DNA from: Chitinolyticbacter meiyuanensis
Lineage (GTDB): Bacteria; Pseudomonadota; Gammaproteobacteria; Burkholderiales; Chitinibacteraceae
Reading direction: 5' to 3'
DNA length: 64,000 nt
Assembly (NCBI RefSeq): GCF_008033135.1
Contig: NZ_CP041335.1
Location: 531,513 to 595,512, forward strand
The notes below the pieces were generated by a model. It was not told the DNA's origin, did no database searches, and worked only from the letters and a program-made list of their open reading frames with translations. A program made the position numbers and the translations under genes. This document shows, piece by piece, positions 53,644 through 64,000 of this stretch. Position 1 is the stretch's first letter. The number at the start of each line of letters is the position of its first letter.

Positions 53644-54453
53644 CTATCTGGATATAGCCGAAGTGGTTGCCCCGGGCGTGGCCACGAGCCCCAGGCGCTG
53701 CGGATGGCTGTAGACCGTCAACCGTTCGCCCCGGGCGAAGCCGATCAGCGCGATGCCGGCTTGCTCGGCAAGGGAGACCGCCAGCCGCGTCGGCGCCGAG
53801 ATCGCCGCGACGATGGGCAAGCCGGCGCTGGCCGCCTTGTGCACGATCTCGGACGAAGCGCGCGAGGTCATCAGCAGCACGCCGTCGCGCGGCGCGCGCG
53901 CGGCCGCGAGCGCACCGACCAGCTTGTCGAGCGCATTGTGCCGGCCCACGTCCTCGCGCACGGTGAGCGTGTCGCCAGCCAGCCAAGCCGCTGCGTGCAC
54001 GGCACCCGTGGCCTGGTTCAATGGCTGCGCCGCTGCCAGCCGTGCCATGCCAGCGAGCACCGCATCGGGCGTGGTGCGGAAATCACTGGCGATCGGTGCA
54101 ATGGCTGGCAAGGCCTGCTCCAGATGCTCGATGCCGCACAGCCCGCAGCCGGTACGCCCGGCGAGCTGCCGCCGCCGCGCCTGCAGTGCCTGGAATCGCG
54201 ATTCGATCAGCGTGACCCGCGCCTCGACGCCGGCCGCCACCGGCACGATCGCCACGTCGACGATCTCGTGCCAAGCCGCGATGCCCTCGGTGAGCGTGAA
54301 GCCGATGGCGAAGTCTTCCAGATCACCCGGGCTCGCCAGCATCACTGCGTGCGAGACGCCGTTGTAGACCAGCGCCACCGGCGCCTCGTCGGCCAGCGCT
54401 TCCTCGCGCGCAGCGAGCGCACCCGCCTGCCAGCACAGGGCTGAGTGATTCAC
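53644..54453 (-). CDS. fdhD: Formate dehydrogenase accessory sulfurtransferase FdhD
   Basis: A 269-residue FdhD. The cysteine motif GRTGCGLCGIE holds the two cysteines that carry sulfur to the molybdenum cofactor; EDFAIGFTLTEGI, VREDVGRHNALDKLVGA and LMTSRASSEIVHKAASAGLP are the other signatures. It starts at a GTG (54453) that overlaps the stop of the oxidoreductase gene by four bases, so the two are coupled and the sulfurtransferase probably serves that enzyme. Confidence 0.93.
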   Translation of the reverse strand: MNHSALCWQAGALAAREEALADEAPVALVYNGVSHAVMLASPGDLEDFAIGFTLTEGIAAWHEIVDVAIVPVAAGVEARVTLIESRFQALQARRRQLAGRTGCGLCGIEHLEQALPAIAPIASDFRTTPDAVLAGMARLAAAQPLNQATGAVHAAAWLAGDTLTVREDVGRHNALDKLVGALAAARAPRDGVLLMTSRASSEIVHKAASAGLPIVAAISAPTRLAVSLAEQAGIALIGFARGERLTVYSHPQRLGLVATPGATTSAISR

Positions 54454-56684
54454 CGCGCCACCAGATAGACCGGAATCGCCTTGCTCGCCGGCGTCTGCGC
54501 GTCGACAGCGTGGTGGCTCAGCGGCACCAGCGGGTTGGTCTCGGGGAAGTAGGCGGCAAGGCTGCCGGGCGGGATGTCGTAGGGCTGTAGTCGGAAGTCC
54601 GTCACACTGCGCTCGCCGTCGAACCACACCGAGACCAGGTCGACCTGCTGCCCCGCCTGCCAGCCGCGCGAGGCGAGGTCGTCCGGGTGGATGAACACCA
54701 CGCGGCGTTCGCCCTTGATATCGCGGTAGCGGTCGTTCAGGTCGTAGACGGTGGTGTTGTACTGATCGTGGCTGCGCACTGTCATCAGCGTGTAGAGCGG
54801 CTGATCGGTCAGTGCGGCGAGCCGGTCCAGCAGCGGGGCGCTGAGCGGATGCACCACGAAGCGGGCCTTGCCGCTTTGCGTGCGCCAGTCGAGTTCGCGC
54901 GCGCTGTTACCCAGATAAAAGCCACCCGGCTCGCGCACGCGCTGGTTGAAGTCAGTGAAGCCCGGCACCACGGCGGCGATCAGCTCGCGGATGCGGTCGT
55001 AGTCGCGGGTCAGCGCAATGAAGTCGACGGGGCTACGCTCGGCCAGCGTCGCCGCGGCCATACGCGCGATGATCACCGGCTCGGCCAGCAGATGTTCGGA
55101 CGCGGGCGGCTTCACCCCGCGCGTCAGGTGCACCATGCTCATCGAATCCTCGACCGTGATCTGCTGCGGCGTGCCGTCCTGCACGTCGATCTCGGTGCGG
55201 CCAAGGCAGGGCAGGATCAGCGCGTCCCGCCCCACGATCAGGTGCGAGCGGTTGAGCTTGGTGGAGATTTGCACGGTGAGCGCCTGGCGGCGCAGCGCGG
55301 CTTGCGTTGCCACCGTATCCGGCGTGGCGGCGGCGAAGTTGCCGCCCAGCGCGATGAACACCTTGGCGCGATCCCCCGCCATGGCGGCGATGGCCTCCAC
55401 CACGCTGTGGCCGTGCGCCTGGGGCGGCGTGAAGCCGCAGGCTTCCTCCAGCCTGGCGAGAAAGGCCGCACTCGGGCGCTCGTTGATGCCCATGGTGCGA
55501 TCGCCTTGCACATTGGAATGTCCGCGTACCGGACAGGCGCCGGCGCCGGGCTTGCCGATGTTGCCGCGTACCAACAGCGCGTTGCACAGCATCTGGATGG
55601 TGGCGACCGAATCGGCGTGCTGGGTGATGCCCATGCCCCAGGTGAACATGGTGGCGCCGCTGGCGGCATAGATCGCGCCGGCCTCCTGCAGCTCGCCGAT
55701 GCTGAGGCCACTATGATCGGCGAGTTCATCCCAGCCAGTAGCGGCAATGTCGGCGGCGAGCGCGGCAAAGCCGTCGGTGTGGCGGGCGATGAATTCGGCG
55801 TCCTCGCAACCCGTTTCCAGCACGTGCTTGATCAGCGCCTTGGCGATGGCGAGGTCACCACCGATGCGCGGCTGGAAATAGCGGGTGGCGATGGCGGTGG
55901 CACCATTGCCCAGCATCTCGGTGGGGCTCTTTGGGTCCTGAAACGCGATCAGCCCGCGTTCGCGCAACGGATTGAACACGACGATGCGACAGCCGCGCCG
56001 AGCGGCCTCGCGCAATTCACCCAGCATGCGTGGGTGATTGGTGCCGGGGTTCTGGCCAAAGATGAAGATCGCCTCGGCGGCCTCGAAATCGGCCAACGTC
56101 ACCGTGCCCTTGCCGGTGCCGATGCTGGCGCTGAGCGCCCGGCCGCTGGGCTCGTGGCACATGTTCGAGCAATCGGGCAGGTTGTTGGTGCCGTAGGCGC
56201 GCACGAACAACTGGTAAAGAAAGGCCGTTTCATTGCCGGTGCGCCCGGAGGTATAGAACAGGGCTTGATCTGGCGTGATGGCGTTGAGGTGCTGCGCAAT
56301 CAGCGCGAAGGCATCGTCCCAAGCGACAGGCAGGTAGCGGTCACTCGCCGCGTCGTAGCGCATCGGCTCGGTGAGCCGGCCCTGCTGCTCCAGCGTGTAG
56401 TCATCCCAGGTGTTGAGTTCGGTCACCGTATGCGCGGCGAAGAATTCGCGGGTGACGCGATGGGCGGTGATCTCGTGCGTGATCGCCTTGGCGCCGTTCT
56501 CGCAGAACTGGATGGCGGCACCCGGCTTGTCCGGCCAAGCACAGCCGGGACAGTCGAAGCCTTCGGGCTGGTTGGCGCGGATCAAGGCTTTCAACGTGAT
56601 CCGGGCATTGCCCGGTTCGATCCGCTGCAGCGTGGTCTTCAGCGCGCCCCAGCCGCCGGCGGGGGGAGTGGTCGGTTTGCTCAT
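54450..56684 (-). CDS. FdhF/YdeP family molybdopterin oxidoreductase
   Basis: A 744-residue enzyme of the formate dehydrogenase-alpha-like group. The N-terminus has GFDCPGCAWPDKPGAA, a short Cys motif in place of a full four-Cys cluster site. TSGRTGNETAFLYQLFVRAY, CHEPSGRALSASIGTGKGTV, IFGQNPGTNHPRML and the C-terminal VRSHDQYNTTVYDLNDRYRD bind the bis-MGD cofactor. YdeP has been linked to acid resistance but its substrate is not known, so formate oxidation is only possible. No other dehydrogenase subunits follow. Confidence 0.87.
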   Translation of the reverse strand: MSKPTTPPAGGWGALKTTLQRIEPGNARITLKALIRANQPEGFDCPGCAWPDKPGAAIQFCENGAKAITHEITAHRVTREFFAAHTVTELNTWDDYTLEQQGRLTEPMRYDAASDRYLPVAWDDAFALIAQHLNAITPDQALFYTSGRTGNETAFLYQLFVRAYGTNNLPDCSNMCHEPSGRALSASIGTGKGTVTLADFEAAEAIFIFGQNPGTNHPRMLGELREAARRGCRIVVFNPLRERGLIAFQDPKSPTEMLGNGATAIATRYFQPRIGGDLAIAKALIKHVLETGCEDAEFIARHTDGFAALAADIAATGWDELADHSGLSIGELQEAGAIYAASGATMFTWGMGITQHADSVATIQMLCNALLVRGNIGKPGAGACPVRGHSNVQGDRTMGINERPSAAFLARLEEACGFTPPQAHGHSVVEAIAAMAGDRAKVFIALGGNFAAATPDTVATQAALRRQALTVQISTKLNRSHLIVGRDALILPCLGRTEIDVQDGTPQQITVEDSMSMVHLTRGVKPPASEHLLAEPVIIARMAAATLAERSPVDFIALTRDYDRIRELIAAVVPGFTDFNQRVREPGGFYLGNSARELDWRTQSGKARFVVHPLSAPLLDRLAALTDQPLYTLMTVRSHDQYNTTVYDLNDRYRDIKGERRVVFIHPDDLASRGWQAGQQVDLVSVWFDGERSVTDFRLQPYDIPPGSLAAYFPETNPLVPLSHHAVDAQTPASKAIPVYLVAR

Positions 56685-56975
56685 GTGGCATCGCTCGCGT
56701 GATCGATTGATGGTGCGATGCCGTCACCGCTTTGGCAAGCCGCTTGCCACCCGTCACCCCTGACCGGCAGCCGGTTGGGTACGCGCCACGGCGCGGATGC
56801 CGTTCGCACCGCGAAAGCGTCTGGCCGTCGTCGCTGCGTTGCGCGCATGGGCCGTCAATTGCAAGCTGCGCGCCAGAGGCCAGACCATGGCCCGGCCCGC
56901 TCGCCCACGGGATGCTTGGAGTCGAGACGCGAGTGCAGTCATCCAACTGCATGCAGTCTTGAGGAGTAAACACGC

Positions 56976-58997
56976 ATGAACCATCCCGTGCACTGGCTGG
57001 CGCGTTCGCGCCTGGCTGTCGCGCTGGCGAGCCTGGGCCTGTCTGCCATCGCGCTGGGCGCATCGCCCGCCTGCTTCTACGAACACATCAACTACACCGG
57101 GGCGAGCTTCTGCGTCGGCGAAGGCACGGCCAACGTCGATCTGCGCAGCTGGAACGACCGCATCTCCTCTGTAAAGCTGGAGTCGGGCTATCAGGTACAG
57201 CTGTTCGAGCACATCAACCAGGCTGACCGCGCACTGGCGTTGAGCACGAGCGAGGCCAATCTGGTCAACCGCCGCTTCAACGATGCCGCCTCGTCGTACC
57301 GCGTGGTGAAGGTGGCCGGCCCGACGCCGCAGCCGACGCCACGCCCCACCGCAACGCCCACGCCGCGGCCAACCCCGACATTGGCGCCAACGCCCCGGCC
57401 TACTTCGTTGCCGACGGCCACGCCGACCCCGCGTCCAACCCCGGTGCCGACGCTTGCCCCGACACCGACTCCGCGGCCCACGCCCATCCCGACGCCAACG
57501 CCACGCCCCACCGCCGTGCCGACGCCGGTACCGGGCGGCCTCGTTGCCGCGCTGCCGAACAGCGCGCAGTTCGATCCAGCGTGCAATCCGACGGTGGTGA
57601 TCGATCTGCAGGATCCGGTGGGCTTTGCCGCCTTCACCAGCAAGGCCACGCTCGATCAGTTGCGCCAGGCCATCGCCCAGTTCGCACGCAACGATTGTGC
57701 AGTGCTGTTCAAGTCGCCGACCGAGGTGGAGAACCAGCCGGCCACGCTGCGTGTGGTGATCAAGGCCATGGACGGCGTCGCCTACGCCGGTGGCAACGAG
57801 ATCACGCTGTCGAGTAGCTATATCGCCGGCCATTCGGATCCGGTGAAGGAAACGCTGGGCGTGTTCGCCCACGAAGTCACCCACATCTACCAGAACAACG
57901 ACCGCGATGCGGCCGAAGCGGAAGGCCGTGGCGCCATCATCGAAGGCATCGCCGACTTCGTGCGCTATCGCAACGGCTACAAGACGCTGGCCAATCGCCG
58001 CCCCGGCGGCAGCTGGAAGGATGCCTACGACACCACCGCCTTCTTCCTCGACTGGCTGGACCAGCGCTATCCCGGCTTTGTCTACCGGTTGAACCAGGCG
58101 CTGAGCTCGCGTGATCGCAAGCAGTGGACCTCCGCCTTCTTTGCTAGCGACACCGGCAAGTCGGTCGACACGCTGTGGGCGGAATACCAGCAGGCGCTGA
58201 ACCCGGCCCTGCCGACCACCGGCGCGGTGTGCTTCTACGAGCACATCAACTACGCGGGCAAGGTGTTCTGCAGCAACGAAGGCGCGACCGAAGTGCTGAG
58301 CGGTGGCTGGGACAACGGCGCCTCGTCGGTGAAGGTGCAGGCCGGCTACCAGGTCGAGCTCTATGACGGCACCAGCTACACCGGCAGCCGGCTGGCGCTG
58401 ACCGCCGACGAGCCCAATCTGGTCGGCCGCGGCTTCAACGACGCGATGTCCTCCTTCCGCGTCGCCAAGACCGGCAGCGGTGGCGTCACGCCAACGCCCA
58501 CACCGCTGCCCGGCGGCGTGCTGACCGGCGATACTCCGGCGGCGCAAGGCCTGTTGGCCGCGCATAACACGGTGCGCGCCGGGGAGAACGCTGGCCTGCC
58601 CGCAATGCGCTGGGACAACGCGCTCGCCGCCAGTGCCCAAGGCTGGGCCGACGAGCTTGCCGCCACCAACAACTGCGATCTCAAGCACAGCGGCCACAGC
58701 TTCCAGGGCCAGTGGATGGGCGAAAACCTGTTTGGCGGCTGGGGCTCCAACCCCACGCCGGACTATCGCTGGAGCCCGGCCCAGGTGGTCGATTCCTGGG
58801 CGAGCGAGAAGCCCAACTACAGCTTCGCCACCAAGAGCTGCGCCGCCGGCAAGGTGTGCGGCCACTACACGCAGGTGGTGTGGAAGAACTCCACCCAGCT
58901 CGGTTGCGGCCGCGCCCGCTGCGGCGGCAATACCAAGGAAGTGTGGGTGTGCAACTACTTCCCCGGTGGCAACTACGTGGGACAGAACCCGTATTGA
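56976..58997 (+). CDS. Secreted crystallin / basic secretory protease / crystallin / CAP protein
   Basis: A 673-residue exported protein of four domains. Signal peptide to residue 32. Domain 1 (33-112) and domain 3 (419-495) are beta/gamma-crystallin-like (CFYEHINYTGASFC; CFYEHINYAGKVFC). A Pro-Thr linker (115-186) precedes domain 2 (188-407), a basic secretory protein/peptidase of plants and bacteria (PF04450 type) with zinc motif H299-E-V-T-H303 and a downstream GIADFVRYRNGY. Domain 4 (about 520-673) is a CAP/PR-1 domain (LLAAHNTVRAGENAGLPAMR; MGENLFGGW; CGHYTQVVWKNSTQLGCG). Even Cys pairs suggest disulfides. Role unknown; an extracellular hydrolase or antagonism factor is plausible. Confidence 0.85.
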   Translation: MNHPVHWLARSRLAVALASLGLSAIALGASPACFYEHINYTGASFCVGEGTANVDLRSWNDRISSVKLESGYQVQLFEHINQADRALALSTSEANLVNRRFNDAASSYRVVKVAGPTPQPTPRPTATPTPRPTPTLAPTPRPTSLPTATPTPRPTPVPTLAPTPTPRPTPIPTPTPRPTAVPTPVPGGLVAALPNSAQFDPACNPTVVIDLQDPVGFAAFTSKATLDQLRQAIAQFARNDCAVLFKSPTEVENQPATLRVVIKAMDGVAYAGGNEITLSSSYIAGHSDPVKETLGVFAHEVTHIYQNNDRDAAEAEGRGAIIEGIADFVRYRNGYKTLANRRPGGSWKDAYDTTAFFLDWLDQRYPGFVYRLNQALSSRDRKQWTSAFFASDTGKSVDTLWAEYQQALNPALPTTGAVCFYEHINYAGKVFCSNEGATEVLSGGWDNGASSVKVQAGYQVELYDGTSYTGSRLALTADEPNLVGRGFNDAMSSFRVAKTGSGGVTPTPTPLPGGVLTGDTPAAQGLLAAHNTVRAGENAGLPAMRWDNALAASAQGWADELAATNNCDLKHSGHSFQGQWMGENLFGGWGSNPTPDYRWSPAQVVDSWASEKPNYSFATKSCAAGKVCGHYTQVVWKNSTQLGCGRARCGGNTKEVWVCNYFPGGNYVGQNPY

Positions 58998-59075
58998 TCC
59001 TGAACCTGCCGGTTCGGGGCCGTGCCCATGTGGCATGGCGCCGGCCGGGGCGACTTTCCTTCTCCTCCTGATTGC

Positions 59076-59103
59076 ACACCGGCCTTGCGCCGGTGTTTTT
59101 TTA
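59076..59103 (+). terminator. Rho-independent terminator after the four-domain protein
   Basis: ACACCGGC (59076-59083) pairs with GCCGGTGT (59089-59096) around a 5-base loop, followed by seven Ts. It lies about 80 bases after the stop and before the convergent modC end. Confidence 0.88.
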
Positions 59104-59139
59104 TCAACAAGGTGCGTGGTCAGTTTCTGCTGGCAGGGC

Positions 59140-60192
59140 TCAGCACAGCGCCACCGACTTGATCTGCGCCCACACCGCCATGCCCGGGGCCAGCTGCAGC
59201 TGTGCTGTCGAGCGCCGGGTGATCCGTGCGACCAGCATCGTGCCGTGGCAATCGAGTTCGACCAGCATGTGGGCTGTCTGCGCCGCGGGGGCCAGCCGGG
59301 CGACGCGTGCCGGCAGGCGATTGACGATACTGGTATCCGCTTGGTCGGAGAGGGCGATGCTCACATCGCGCGCGGCGATGCGTAGCCGCAGGGATGATCC
59401 GCTACGGGCGGCATCGAGCGGCGCCCACAGCGTGATGGCGCCGACATGCAGCGCGGCGAGGCCATCCGCGGCGACCTCGCCCACCGTGGCGTCGAGTACC
59501 ACTGACAGCGCATCGTCGAACGCCGGTGGCAAGTCGAAGCGCGATAGCGTGGCGGACAACGGCCCACTGGCGCGCACGCGGCCCGCCTCCAGCAAGACCA
59601 GGTGGTCGGCCAGTTGTGCCACCTCGGCGATCGCATGGCTGACCAGCACCACCGGCAGATCGAAGGTGCGTGGCAGCGCGGCGAGGTAGGGCAGGATGTC
59701 GGCCTTGCGCGCCGCATCGAGCGCGGACAGCGGCTCGTCGAGCAGCAGCAGCGCCGGCGCTGCCAGCAGCGCACGGGCAATGGCTACGCGCTGGCGCTCG
59801 CCGCCGGACAATTGCGGCGTGCGCCGCTCGAGCAAGGGCGAGAGATCAAGCGCATCGATCACGCGATGCCAATCCGCTTGGCACGCGGCGCGGGTCCAGC
59901 CGAATTCGAGATTGCCGCGCACCGACAGGTGCGGGAACAGGCTGGCTTCCTGGAACACCAGCCCCACGCTGCGCTGGTGCGTCGGCACGAACGCGTCGCC
60001 GTCCTGCCAGCGCGCGCCGTTCACGGTGAGCGAGCCATCGGCGCGCTCCAGCCCCGCCAAACAGCGCAATAGCGTGGTCTTGCCCGATCCCGATGGCCCG
60101 AACAGCGCGCTGATGCCACTGCCGGGCAAGGTGAAGGTGGCGTCGAGCGTGAATTCGGCGCGGGCGAGGCGGAAATCGGCACCGATGCTCAT
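59140..60192 (-). CDS. modC: Molybdate ABC transporter ATPase ModC
   Basis: A 350-residue ATPase. Walker A GPSGSGKTTLLRCL, signature LSGGERQRVAIARALL and Walker B LLLLDEPLSALD are intact. The C-terminal MOP-like domain (VNRLPARVARLAPAAQ ... VWAQIKSVAL) binds molybdate and is typical of ModC. It overlaps modB by four bases (ATG at 60192). The longer frame seen upstream is the wrong frame of modB. Confidence 0.93.
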   Translation of the reverse strand: MSIGADFRLARAEFTLDATFTLPGSGISALFGPSGSGKTTLLRCLAGLERADGSLTVNGARWQDGDAFVPTHQRSVGLVFQEASLFPHLSVRGNLEFGWTRAACQADWHRVIDALDLSPLLERRTPQLSGGERQRVAIARALLAAPALLLLDEPLSALDAARKADILPYLAALPRTFDLPVVLVSHAIAEVAQLADHLVLLEAGRVRASGPLSATLSRFDLPPAFDDALSVVLDATVGEVAADGLAALHVGAITLWAPLDAARSGSSLRLRIAARDVSIALSDQADTSIVNRLPARVARLAPAAQTAHMLVELDCHGTMLVARITRRSTAQLQLAPGMAVWAQIKSVALC

Positions 60193-60851
60193 CGCTTGCC
60201 CCGCCACAGCTGCAGCGCCAGCAGCACGGCAAAGCTGAATACCAGCAGCCCGCCAGCCAGCCAGTGCGCCTGCGCGTATTCCAGCGCCTCCACATGGTCG
60301 TACAGCAGTACCGATACCACCCGCGTTTCGCGCGGAATGTTGCCGCCCATCATCAGCACCACGCCGAATTCGCCCACGGTATGGGCAAAGCTCATCACCA
60401 GCGCGGTGATGAAGCCAGGGCGGGCCAGCGGCAGCGCCACGTGGCGAAAGGTATCCCATGGTGCAGCGCGCAAGGTGGCCGCCGCCTCGAAATGGCGCAC
60501 GTCGATGGCGGCGAACGCCTGTTGCAATGGCTGCACCGCGAAGGGCAGCGAATAGAGCACCGAGGCGATGACAAGGCCCGTGAAGGTGAACGGCAACAGC
60601 CCCAGGCCCATGGCCTGCGTCAGCGCGCCGACGGGGCCGTTGGCGCCCATCAGCACCAGCAGGTAGAAGCCCAGCACCGTGGGCGGCAGGATCAGTGGCA
60701 GCGTCACCACTGCGCCAATCACGCGGCTCGCTGCCGTGCGCGAGCGTGCCAGCCACCACGCCAGCGGCGTGGCGAGGATCAGCAGGATGACGGTGCTCAC
60801 CGCCGCAAGGCGGGCGGTGAGCCAGATGGCGGACCAGGTTTCGGCGTTCAT
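60189..60851 (-). CDS. modB: Molybdate ABC transporter permease ModB
   Basis: A 220-residue permease with about five helices. The EAA loop, AATLRAAPWDTFRHVALPLARPG (part shown), and TFTGLVIASVLYSLPFAVQP match ModB. Start ATG at 60851. In the usual modABC order it would follow modA directly; here a lipoprotein gene sits between, with a 55-base gap to modB. Confidence 0.92.
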   Translation of the reverse strand: MNAETWSAIWLTARLAAVSTVILLILATPLAWWLARSRTAASRVIGAVVTLPLILPPTVLGFYLLVLMGANGPVGALTQAMGLGLLPFTFTGLVIASVLYSLPFAVQPLQQAFAAIDVRHFEAAATLRAAPWDTFRHVALPLARPGFITALVMSFAHTVGEFGVVLMMGGNIPRETRVVSVLLYDHVEALEYAQAHWLAGGLLVFSFAVLLALQLWRGKR

Positions 60852-60906
60852 TGCTCGGCATCGTACCAAGGGAGCGGCGCGTTTGGCCCCGCACAACCGG
60901 CTGGCT

Positions 60907-62043
60907 TCAGCGCAAGGGGCCGAGATAGCGCGCGGTCATCCCGTCGAGCAGGAACAGGTGCTTGTTGCGCAGATCGGCGAAATCGCCCTGATTGAGCACG
61001 ATGTCGATCTGGCTGTCGGTCCAGCGGGTGGGCACCTGGACCACGGCGCGGCTGCGCTCGGCCCAGACCGCCGAGTCGGCGAGCTCGATACGGCGATGGC
61101 TGAAATCGAGGTAGGGCATGGCGTGGCCGATGAACTCGCCGGCTTCGCCGTTCATGTCGACGGTGTTGGACAGCAGGAAGTAGTTGAGCCGCCCGCTGGT
61201 GCCCAGCCAGCCGCTGATCTCACCGTGGTAGTTGCGCGATACATCGCGCAGCAACTGGCCGTCGGCGTAGAAGGCGATGCGGTCATTGGCGAAATCGGCC
61301 AGGATCTCGTAACGCATCCAGCGGTTGTTGCTGTAGCCGGCGGGTGGGTCGGCGTAGAGGCCGGGCATGCCGTCGTTACTACCCTCGGCGCGGGCGGTCA
61401 GCGTGCTGCCTTCCTTGGCCACCCAGACGTTGTGGTTGATCACGTTGGAGTTGGTCCAGTAAAAGCGCATGAACTTGCCCGGCGCGGCGATGGTGGAGAG
61501 GTTCACGTAGCACGACACATAAAGCTGCGGGTAGTCACCGTTGCGCTCCCACAGGTTCCAGTTGCGCAACCGGTAGTTGGCTGGATAGGCATCGCGGATG
61601 GACTGGGTGATCTGGCGGCGCAGCCAGCGCCCGGAATGGGTGACGCCGCCACTCAGCTGCACCGTGGCGCCGGAGGCCGTGGCCTGGCTGTTGAAATCGG
61701 TCGAGGTCAGGATAGGGTAGATGCCGTCGAGCTGCGCCTGCCAGCCGGCCTTGGTGTTGCTGGCGGGTGCGCCACCCACGGCGTTGTCGAAATCACTGAA
61801 TCGAGCCAGCAGGTGGCGCTGGCCGAAATAGCGATGATTGTCGGTGTTGTAATCGGCTTTGCTGCCAAACCCGCTTCCCTGAATCACATAGCGCGCACCG
61901 TGGCTGGTGGCAGGGACAACCGCTGGCGTGGGGCTGGGTGACGATGCCGCGGCCGACTGGGGGGCTGCATCGTCGCTGCCCTCACCTCCGCCACAAGCGG
62001 CAAGCAGCACGGTGAACAAGACCGGGAGGGCGCGGCGGGTCAT
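60907..62043 (-). CDS. Lipoprotein of unknown function embedded in the mod cluster
   Basis: A 378-residue predicted lipoprotein: lipobox LLAAC at residues 13-17, followed by a low-complexity Ser/Ala/Pro region. The rest (YVIQGSGFGSKADYNTDNHR; WLRRQITQSIRDAYPANYRL; RFYWTNSNVINHNVWVAKEG; RWMRYEILADFANDRIAFYA) reads as a beta-rich, jelly-roll-like fold of the polysaccharide lyase/lectin kind, with many aromatics. No catalytic motif is recognisable. It lies between modA and modB on the same strand; nothing links it to molybdate. ATG at 62043. Confidence 0.7.
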   Translation of the reverse strand: MTRRALPVLFTVLLAACGGGEGSDDAAPQSAAASSPSPTPAVVPATSHGARYVIQGSGFGSKADYNTDNHRYFGQRHLLARFSDFDNAVGGAPASNTKAGWQAQLDGIYPILTSTDFNSQATASGATVQLSGGVTHSGRWLRRQITQSIRDAYPANYRLRNWNLWERNGDYPQLYVSCYVNLSTIAAPGKFMRFYWTNSNVINHNVWVAKEGSTLTARAEGSNDGMPGLYADPPAGYSNNRWMRYEILADFANDRIAFYADGQLLRDVSRNYHGEISGWLGTSGRLNYFLLSNTVDMNGEAGEFIGHAMPYLDFSHRRIELADSAVWAERSRAVVQVPTRWTDSQIDIVLNQGDFADLRNKHLFLLDGMTARYLGPLR

Positions 62044-62153
62044 GGCAGTCTCGATAGTCGGGGGCTTCGTTGTACGAAGCCCTGCCCGGGCTGGCAAGTA
62101 CGATGGCTTTCCGGCCGGCCAGTGGCTGCTCGGCGATGATCGGCGGAGAGGAA

Positions 62154-62882
62154 TCAGCGATAGCCGAAGCGGGTCAGCACTTGTTTGGCTGCCGCCGATT
62201 TCAAGTAGTCCAGCAACGCCTTCGCCGCCGCATTGTCCGCACCACGCTTGAGTAGCGCGGCATCCTGGCGGATCGGCTGGTGCAGTTGCTCGGGCACGAT
62301 CCAGCCGGCGCCGCTGGTGATGTGGCCGTCGTCGAATACCTGCGAGAGCGCCACGAAGCCGAGATCGGCATTGCCGCTGGCGACGAACTGGTGGGTCTGC
62401 GCAATGTTCTCGCCCTGTACCAGCTTCGGGATCACGGCCTCGTAAAGCTTGAGCGCAGTCAGCGCCTCGACGGCGGCGCGGCCGTAGGGGGCGACCTTGG
62501 GATTGGCGATGGCGAGCTTGCGCCAGTTGCCGGCTTTCAGCGTGGCTTCGTCCACCGGGCCGGCTTCGGCGCGCCACAGCACCAGCCGGCCAACCGCATA
62601 GGTGAAGCGGCTGCCGGCCACGGCCTGGCCTTCGTCTTCCAGCTTTTTCGGCGTTTCGTCGTCGGCAGCCAGCAGCACGTCGAACGGCGCGCCGGCGACA
62701 ATCTGCGCGTAGAACTTGCCGGTGGCGCCGGAGGACATGACCACGGTGTGGCCGCTGGCGCGCTCGAAATCGGCAGCGATGGCCTTCATCGGTCCGGCGA
62801 AATTGGCGGCGACGGCGATGCGCACTTCGGCGGCATGCAACGGCAGGGCGGTGAACAGGGCAAGCAAGGCAAGGCGCAGCAT
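62154..62882 (-). CDS. modA: Molybdate-binding periplasmic protein ModA
   Basis: A 242-residue binding protein. Signal peptide to about residue 17 (LALLALFTALPLHA). VRIAVAANFAGPMKAIAADF, MSSGATGKFYAQIVAGAPFD and NADLGFVALSQVFDDG hold the anion-binding loops of ModA. ATG at 62882 was chosen because a GGAG lies 8 bases upstream; a TTG six bases earlier would overlap it. First gene of the mod set. Confidence 0.93.
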   Translation of the reverse strand: MLRLALLALFTALPLHAAEVRIAVAANFAGPMKAIAADFERASGHTVVMSSGATGKFYAQIVAGAPFDVLLAADDETPKKLEDEGQAVAGSRFTYAVGRLVLWRAEAGPVDEATLKAGNWRKLAIANPKVAPYGRAAVEALTALKLYEAVIPKLVQGENIAQTHQFVASGNADLGFVALSQVFDDGHITSGAGWIVPEQLHQPIRQDAALLKRGADNAAAKALLDYLKSAAAKQVLTRFGYR

Positions 62883-62995
62883 CGGCAAGCTCCAAGGACG
62901 ATGCGCGGACTGTAACGGCCTTGCGCGATGCTGACCAGCCTCTGCCGATGCGCAATGAGCAGTGCTAAGCTGACGCCGATCGAACAGGAGTCAAA

Positions 62996-64000
62996 ATGAC
63001 CGACCAGCCCGCCTTCCTGCCGCCCGCCCGTTTTGTCGATGCTGGCGAGGCGCTTGCCCGCGTGTGTGAAATCTACGAGGCCAGCGTGGCCCACCTGCGC
63101 GAGGCGATGCAGCGCTTTGTCAGCCAAGGCACGCTGCCCGAGCGGGTACGGGCGTGCTATCCCTATGTGGCGGTGCAGACGCACAGCTCCGCCCGGCACT
63201 TCCCGAGCGATCTGTCGCACCTCTCCTACGGCTTTGTCGCCGGCCCTGGTCGGTTCGAGACCACGCTGACCCGGCCCGACCTGTTCGCCGGCTATTACCT
63301 CGAGCAGTTCGAGCTCTTGCTGAAAAACCACCAGTGCGAGATCGAGGTCGGCGTCAGCAGCCAGCCGATGCCGGTGCATTTCTCCTTTGGCGAGAACGAC
63401 CATGTGGAAGGCCAGATGACCTCGGCCCATCGCGTGCTGCTGCGCGATCTGTTCGATCTGCCGGATCTCGCGGCGATGGACGACGGCATTGCCAACGGTA
63501 CCTACGAGCCGGGGCCGGGCGAGCCGTATCCGCTGTCGCTGTTCACCGCGCCACGCGTCGACTACTCGCTGCATCGGCTGCGTCACTACAGCGGCACCAA
63601 CCCGCAGCATTTCCAGAATTTCGTACTGTTCACCAACTACCAGTTCTATATCGACGAATTCGTGAAGCTGGGCCGCGAGGAAATGCAGAAGCCCGATAGC
63701 GAGTACATTGCCTTCGTCGAACCGGGCAACGTGATCACCCGCCGCAGTGGTCTGCCGGCCGAGCCGGGCGACGCCGCCGGCACCGTGCCGCCGCGCCTGC
63801 CGCAGATGCCGGCCTACCACCTGATTCGGTCCGACCGCAGCGGCATCAGCATGGTCAACATCGGCGTCGGCCCTGCCAATGCCAAGACCGTCACCGACCA
63901 CATCGCCGTGCTGCGCCCGCACGCCTGGATCATGCTTGGTCATTGCGCCGGGCTGCGCACCACGCAGCAGCTGGGCGACTACGTACTGGCGCACGGCTAC
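62996..64000 (+). CDS. amn: AMP nucleosidase, 3' end outside the window
   Basis: The first 335 codons of a gene cut by the right edge. The N-terminal domain (VQTHSSARHFPSDLSHLSYG; FSFGENDHVEG) and the start of the nucleosidase domain (IGVGPANAKTVTDHIAVLRP; MLGHCAGLR) match Amn, which splits AMP to adenine and ribose-5-phosphate. The E. coli protein has 484 residues, so about 150 are missing. ACAGGAG precedes the ATG at 62996. Confidence 0.94.
   Translation, partial: MTDQPAFLPPARFVDAGEALARVCEIYEASVAHLREAMQRFVSQGTLPERVRACYPYVAVQTHSSARHFPSDLSHLSYGFVAGPGRFETTLTRPDLFAGYYLEQFELLLKNHQCEIEVGVSSQPMPVHFSFGENDHVEGQMTSAHRVLLRDLFDLPDLAAMDDGIANGTYEPGPGEPYPLSLFTAPRVDYSLHRLRHYSGTNPQHFQNFVLFTNYQFYIDEFVKLGREEMQKPDSEYIAFVEPGNVITRRSGLPAEPGDAAGTVPPRLPQMPAYHLIRSDRSGISMVNIGVGPANAKTVTDHIAVLRPHAWIMLGHCAGLRTTQQLGDYVLAHGY

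Follow-up and report, generated by a model that had tools for sequence, protein, structure and literature searches.

A lipoprotein gene between modA and modB of Chitinolyticbacter meiyuanensis: probably a lineage-specific passenger of the molybdate transport operon

Introduction

Why does a gene for a lipoprotein lie between modA and modB in the molybdate transport operon of Chitinolyticbacter meiyuanensis, and does its product have any part in molybdate uptake? A sequence-only reading of the window – the whole stretch of 64,000 nucleotides analysed here – had taken the mod genes to be normally contiguous, and had seen in the extra gene either a passenger or an outer-membrane partner in metal uptake.

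Price et al. reportedly described the life-cycles of operons in 2006, and an alien gene inside an operon is an ordinary, known kind of event. Passages of PMC10138114 note that operons can carry ORFan or alien genes; the lipoprotein gene resembles those described there in being unrelated to its neighbours, on the same strand, within a conserved operon and missing in relatives, and differs from them in that two members of one genus have unrelated occupants at a single junction. The literature, surveyed by titles and abstract openings, yielded no case in which modA and modB are separated by an unrelated gene. What makes the present case of interest is the combination of recurrent interruptions of the mod operon with an unnamed protein family.

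The operon and its additional gene

The coordinates, strand and neighbours bear out the earlier statement: a gene for a 378-residue lipoprotein separates modA from modB and shares their strand. The features of the locus are as follows.

59140..60192, minus strand: modC, molybdate ATP-binding protein (TIGR02142, E 1.7e-120)
60189..60851, minus strand: modB, molybdate permease (TIGR02141, E 7.3e-69)
60852..60870, minus strand: modB-side border of the insert, from local alignment (the blastn alignment with the sister species G001 ends at 60870)
60907..62043, minus strand: lipoprotein gene, 378 aa (ORF with ATG at 62043 and stop at 60907)
62062..62082, no strand assigned: perfect 8-bp hairpin, GGGCTTCG/CGAAGCCC, between modA and the lipoprotein gene
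62154..62882, minus strand: modA, molybdate substrate-binding protein (TIGR01256, E 3.4e-70; SBP_bac_11)

The three mod genes are NCBIfam equivalog matches, all above the curated cut-offs. By coordinates, modA is followed after 110 nt by the lipoprotein gene and this after 55 nt by modB, which overlaps modC by 4 nt. The hairpin, whose pattern has a single match in the whole genome, ends 18 nt before the start of the lipoprotein gene and is not followed by a T-run on the minus strand; the spacer as a whole (116 nt) is not unusual in structure (z -0.68). A consensus scan of 59000-63100, crude in GC-rich DNA, called no promoter of sigma-70 type and, on the minus strand, no terminator, and the three Rfam matches in 59000-63200 are all far below gathering scores. 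Within the insert, the repeats look like chance, and no target-site duplication was recognised.

On the other side of modC, two genes (54441-59150), one for a molybdopterin oxidoreductase and one for a secreted multi-domain protein, separate it from fdhD, unlike in the sister species, where the fdhD stretch follows modC directly. Within this part of the window, 56976-58997 encodes one 673-aa protein in which beta/gamma-crystallin, BSP peptidase and CAP domains are combined with a Pro/Thr-rich linker.

The lipoprotein gene lies in a stop-to-stop frame of 685 codons; its length alone is no proof of coding, because long open frames are cheap in GC-rich DNA. That it is coding is supported by its GC content per codon position (0.602/0.493/0.847), which is close to the values of modA, modB and modC, and by its match to a profile built without it (see below). 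With a third-position GC so near that of the neighbours, composition gives no sign of recent transfer.

The translation opens MTRRALPVLFTVLLAACGGG, a hydrophobic start that runs into an L-A-A-C lipobox with its cysteine at position 17, as read by eye; the signal peptide is followed by a Ser/Pro/Ala-rich linker to about residue 48 and about 330 residues past it. By the +2 rule, the residue after the lipobox cysteine bears on outer-membrane anchoring. Since that residue is Gly, not Asp, anchoring of the lipoprotein in the outer membrane is plausible.

Occupants of the modA-modB junction

The junction was surveyed in 43 genomes of the bacterial family, in which, at the cut-offs used, a modB-like gene was found in all 43 and modA in 42; in the one remaining genome (G015), a 28% modA match adjoins modB. 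The premise of contiguous mod genes stands for a little over half of them: modA and modB meet without an intervening gene in 24 of the 43, as judged from tblastn gaps of 5-115 nt plus one of 239 nt without a frame of more than 43 codons. It fails for 13 others, which have a TOBE-domain gene of about 130 codons at the junction, a call that comes from Pfam for two of the proteins and from tblastn matches to three of them for the rest. Three genomes (G004, G006 and G021) have modA and modB on different contigs, two of them with a TOBE gene upstream of modB. The last three have another gene at the junction: the lipoprotein gene in the window's genome, an LprI-like gene in the sister species, and a TauE/SafE permease gene in G026 (L086:3904-4707).

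The TOBE (Mop-like) gene, which from the known role of its family we take to be plausibly related to molybdate, shares its position with the lipoprotein gene and differs from the occupant here, as the lipoprotein gap has no TOBE match. In another genus (g5) it is the modB-modC junction that has been opened instead, in some genomes by a DUF2750 gene and/or other frames. Interruptions of the mod operon are thus frequent in this bacterial family, and the genes that cause them are unrelated.

Several smaller observations belong to the same survey. Besides the operon with the permease gene, G026 possesses a second one in which a TOBE gene is present. In the three genomes with split contigs, the stretches analysed (L081 from G021, L082 from G004, L116 from G006) carry a modA-like gene, 54-58% identical, and no modB. 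Among the g5 modB-modC frames (L085:5236-5826, L023:2169-3144 and L026:440-1455), of which three were run against Pfam, those other than the DUF2750 gene have no Pfam match.

The sister species is the only other genome of the genus in the family search (two genomes in all). Identity to the genes of the window is 90% for its modA and 91% for its modB. Its junction holds a different gene.

L079:4428-5231, sister species G001: LprI-like gene in the modA-modB junction (267-codon frame)

The frame matches LprI with E 7.1e-5 and 23.6 bits (gathering score 22), and its GC content is 0.487, against 0.646 for the locus; in the rest of the family, 6 of the 42 other genomes gave matches to the LprI-like protein, all of them partial. 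DNA similarity between the two species is lost where modA ends (62157) and returns at 60870, 19 nt ahead of modB, with an 11-nt stretch (60860-60870) that is identical and in register and may be a -10-like element. Between these borders, the two gaps are similar only at chance level, their best local score of 29 being no higher than the mean of 29.7 for shuffled sequences (maximum 42). The genes in them are therefore unrelated: either they were gained independently or one replaced the other. Because the closest relative in the survey has a different, unrelated gene at the very same spot, the junction has the look of a permissive landing site and not of the seat of a new part for metal uptake.

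An unnamed family of secreted proteins

The lipoprotein itself has no match worth naming in Pfam, NCBIfam or PHROGs. When it was searched for directly in 43 genomes of the family, 369 of the class, 399 of the order and 398 of the phylum, samples that overlap, no close relative turned up other than the gene itself. In a first search at full length, 12 of 61 genomes matched, and, save for the gene itself, all matches fell within the signal peptide and linker (residues 1-74), including one (G000:C1:3869965) that belongs to a paralogue in the same genome; later searches left these residues out.

The family emerged from two weak C-terminal matches in the phylum search (G914 and G947), both with a GSGFG motif near the start. 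An alignment of these two with the query led to seven loci in genome_contigs: three in Marinobacter, one in Acidobacteria, one in Parcubacteria and two on one Moraniibacteriota contig. A profile of nine relatives, made without the query, gives the lipoprotein 55.3 bits (E 1.1e-15), where none of 2000 shuffled sequences exceeds 10.0 bits, and among 315 ORFs of the window only a longer read of the lipoprotein frame also passes. Comparison by hhalign of query and family gives 98.3% over 112 columns in the C-terminal part. The match, clearly above the shuffles, places the lipoprotein in a secreted family with predicted IPT/TIG-like and concanavalin-like domains (set A3), a family apparently without a name and now with a first set of members.

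Profile searches extended the family somewhat. Including the window's own, 4 of 43 family genomes matched – through the paralogue in the window's genome and through genes in G001, G015 and G024 – as did 2 of 255 order genomes (the other being G505) and, in a wider search of the phylum, 4 of 299 (G914 and G947 among them). Strong relatives are those in G015 (contig C23, 116 bits) and G505 (65 bits), and the other four family and order matches are weak, at 22-26 bits; a profile without the query gives nearly the same scores for the family and order relatives.

Four further candidates were dismissed as chance: a 63-residue match in G355, a match with two stops inside in G572, one with a stop inside in G1079 and one in G960 that by reading looks like another outer-membrane protein. 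A pattern scan of genome_contigs for close relatives matched 13 stretches, none of them confirmed; in viral_contigs, the query matched nothing and the Marinobacter member eight stretches, again none confirmed. Searches of phages and plasmids by tblastn gave no match with either sequence, and PDB sequence searches with the query, the paralogue and alignment A4 gave nothing credible.

Predicted architecture

Two pieces of the lipoprotein, at its two ends, may form one domain.

61837..61926, minus strand: IPT/TIG-like domain, N-terminal piece, approximately residues 40-69 (family-wide GSGFGSK motif, alignment A4)
60907..61116, minus strand: IPT/TIG-like domain, C-terminal piece, approximately residues 310-378 (within the best conserved part)

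In hmmsearch, the C-terminal piece (domain 2) scores 48.1 bits and the N-terminal one (domain 1) 6.8 bits, which is weak alone; its GSGFGxK-type motif is aligned in the right place in A4.

Folding of the single sequence gave an unusable model (pLDDT 32.7). From ten aligned sequences, AlphaFold2 produced a partial model with a mean pLDDT of 48.4 and a pTM of 0.52, in which pLDDT is 58 for model residues 1-10, 83 for model residues 11-20 and 68-88 for the last 70, the middle being poor. Compared by VIA-align, the two ends of the model together resemble an immunoglobulin fold of IPT/TIG type (Z 9.4, rmsd 2.2, 81 residues), the match being the C-terminal Rel domain of NFAT1 and the model behind it one of mean pLDDT 48.4. 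Over about 150 residues, the middle resembles concanavalin-like domains at about 4 angstroms with a Z of about 7, a score under the Z of 8 below which that tool calls matches ambiguous, so that the likeness may be just a common arrangement. Foldseek gave no match at E 0.001, its listed rows having TM-scores of at most about 0.34; the first of these are lectin-type domains from a variety of proteins, among them the binding domains of clostridial toxins, and were read as the common concanavalin-like fold alone, a toxin identity being rejected.

Pfam points the same way for some aligned members: at E up to 1, TIG (PF01833) matches 4 of the 10 (best 2.1e-4) and Polysacc_lyase (PF14099) 2 of the 10 (best 4.3e-5), the PF14099 match of the G505 relative being below the gathering score. 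Neither family matched the query. The lipoprotein is thus likened to PF14099 and other concanavalin-like lyases and lectins by two matching members and the suggested fold, and is set apart from PF14099 by the lack of a match of its own. On the strength of the model folds and the Pfam matches of aligned members, we infer a two-piece IPT/TIG-like domain into which a concanavalin-like, polysaccharide-lyase-like domain would be inserted.

Links to polysaccharides

The settings of the relatives also lead to glycans. The secreted proteins at three Marinobacter loci (L097, L098 and L099) share with the lipoprotein a GSGFG-type motif near the start, a conserved C-terminal pattern and a length of about 400 residues, and differ from it in sequence (21-24% identity in A4) and in the absence of mod genes from their loci. 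At L097 and at L098, both of them exopolysaccharide clusters, all eight scanned neighbours (eight of the nine listed in each case) are genes of polysaccharide synthesis or modification: glycosyltransferases, Wzy_C, polysaccharide deacetylase, sulfotransferase, PGA_cap and acyltransferase. At L099, the two neighbours scanned, of ten listed, are a glycosyltransferase and a Mur-ligase/peptidyl-tRNA hydrolase protein. Carbohydrate-binding modules are fused to two relatives, CBM60 to that of G015 and CBM5/12 to that of G024, which matches the family profile weakly (about 25 bits). The function of the lipoprotein is thus probably binding or cleavage of polysaccharide, a suggestion drawn from family and fold; whether its action would be lyase-like or that of a lectin is about evenly balanced.

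The paralogue has a setting of its own.

L142:5897-7120, window's genome: distant paralogue of the lipoprotein

Genes for a PhoB-like regulator and a PhoR kinase precede it on its own strand. It matches the family profile weakly, at 22 bits. By reading, the same order of PhoB-like gene, PhoR gene and relative is found in the sister species, and the related genes of G015 and G024 stand in other settings. This placement fits a picture of single genes settling behind various operons.

Explanations weighed

The evidence is best read, with good though not full confidence, as that of a lineage-specific passenger of modABC. The gene stands on the same strand between conserved operon genes, has no close relative in the other 42 family genomes and is absent from their modA-modB gaps, and at this point the operon of the sister species carries an unrelated one, so that this half of the earlier proposal is upheld. 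The product would be exported and lipid-anchored, probably in the outer membrane, and its concanavalin-like, polysaccharide-lyase-like domain, on an IPT/TIG-like scaffold, may bind or cleave surface or environmental polysaccharide; transcription would most likely come by read-through from the modA promoter, or else from a weak promoter of its own. The other half, an outer-membrane partner in metal uptake, is not supported; a working role for the lipoprotein in molybdate uptake, at the outer membrane or in the periplasm (keeping molybdate near ModA, for example), is highly improbable. Same strand, close spacing and the lack of a called promoter or minus-strand terminator in 59000-63100 do speak for it, as does a lipid anchor that would put the protein in the compartment of ModA, but of the 43 genomes of the family 1 has the gene between modA and modB, its product has no recognisable molybdate-binding domain (no match to TOBE or to a substrate-binding protein), and modA, modB and modC gave no match in 14 distinct related loci of 3-14 kb, in a search that found the mod locus of the sister species as positive control; the evidence from the family points to polysaccharides instead.

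How the passenger is expressed admits another answer: the gene would be transcribed independently, from a promoter and up to a terminator that belong to it, and would lie between modA and modB by coincidence, while the conserved element beside modB would drive that gene. The 110-nt upstream spacer with its hairpin and the 11-nt stretch conserved in both species just before modB are consistent with this; the scan that called neither a sigma-70-like promoter nor a minus-strand terminator, crude as it is in such GC-rich DNA, argues against it, and we consider it possible but rather unlikely. Less likely still is a passenger with a purpose, in which mod control of the lipoprotein and phoBR control of its paralogue would call up a surface glycan protein when oxyanions are scarce: the position of the paralogue and the like order in the sister species suggest it, but the paralogue match is weak, the relatives in G015 and G024 lie elsewhere and two loci are too few. 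The widest reading, which we hold to be quite improbable, would make modA-modB (and modB-modC in g5) a junction at which single genes land repeatedly, and the lipoproteins a mobile glycan-cleaving family behind operons of oxyanion scarcity (mod and phoBR); were it true, turnover of surface polysaccharide would be tied to the supply of molybdate and phosphate.

Implications

Seen as a probable passenger, the lipoprotein gene is a warning against naming a gene by its operon, for its product could have been guessed to be a molybdate protein, and its family leads to polysaccharides. An unnamed secreted family gains its first set of members and a function that can be tested, and a pair of related species offers the same operon junction with different cargo.
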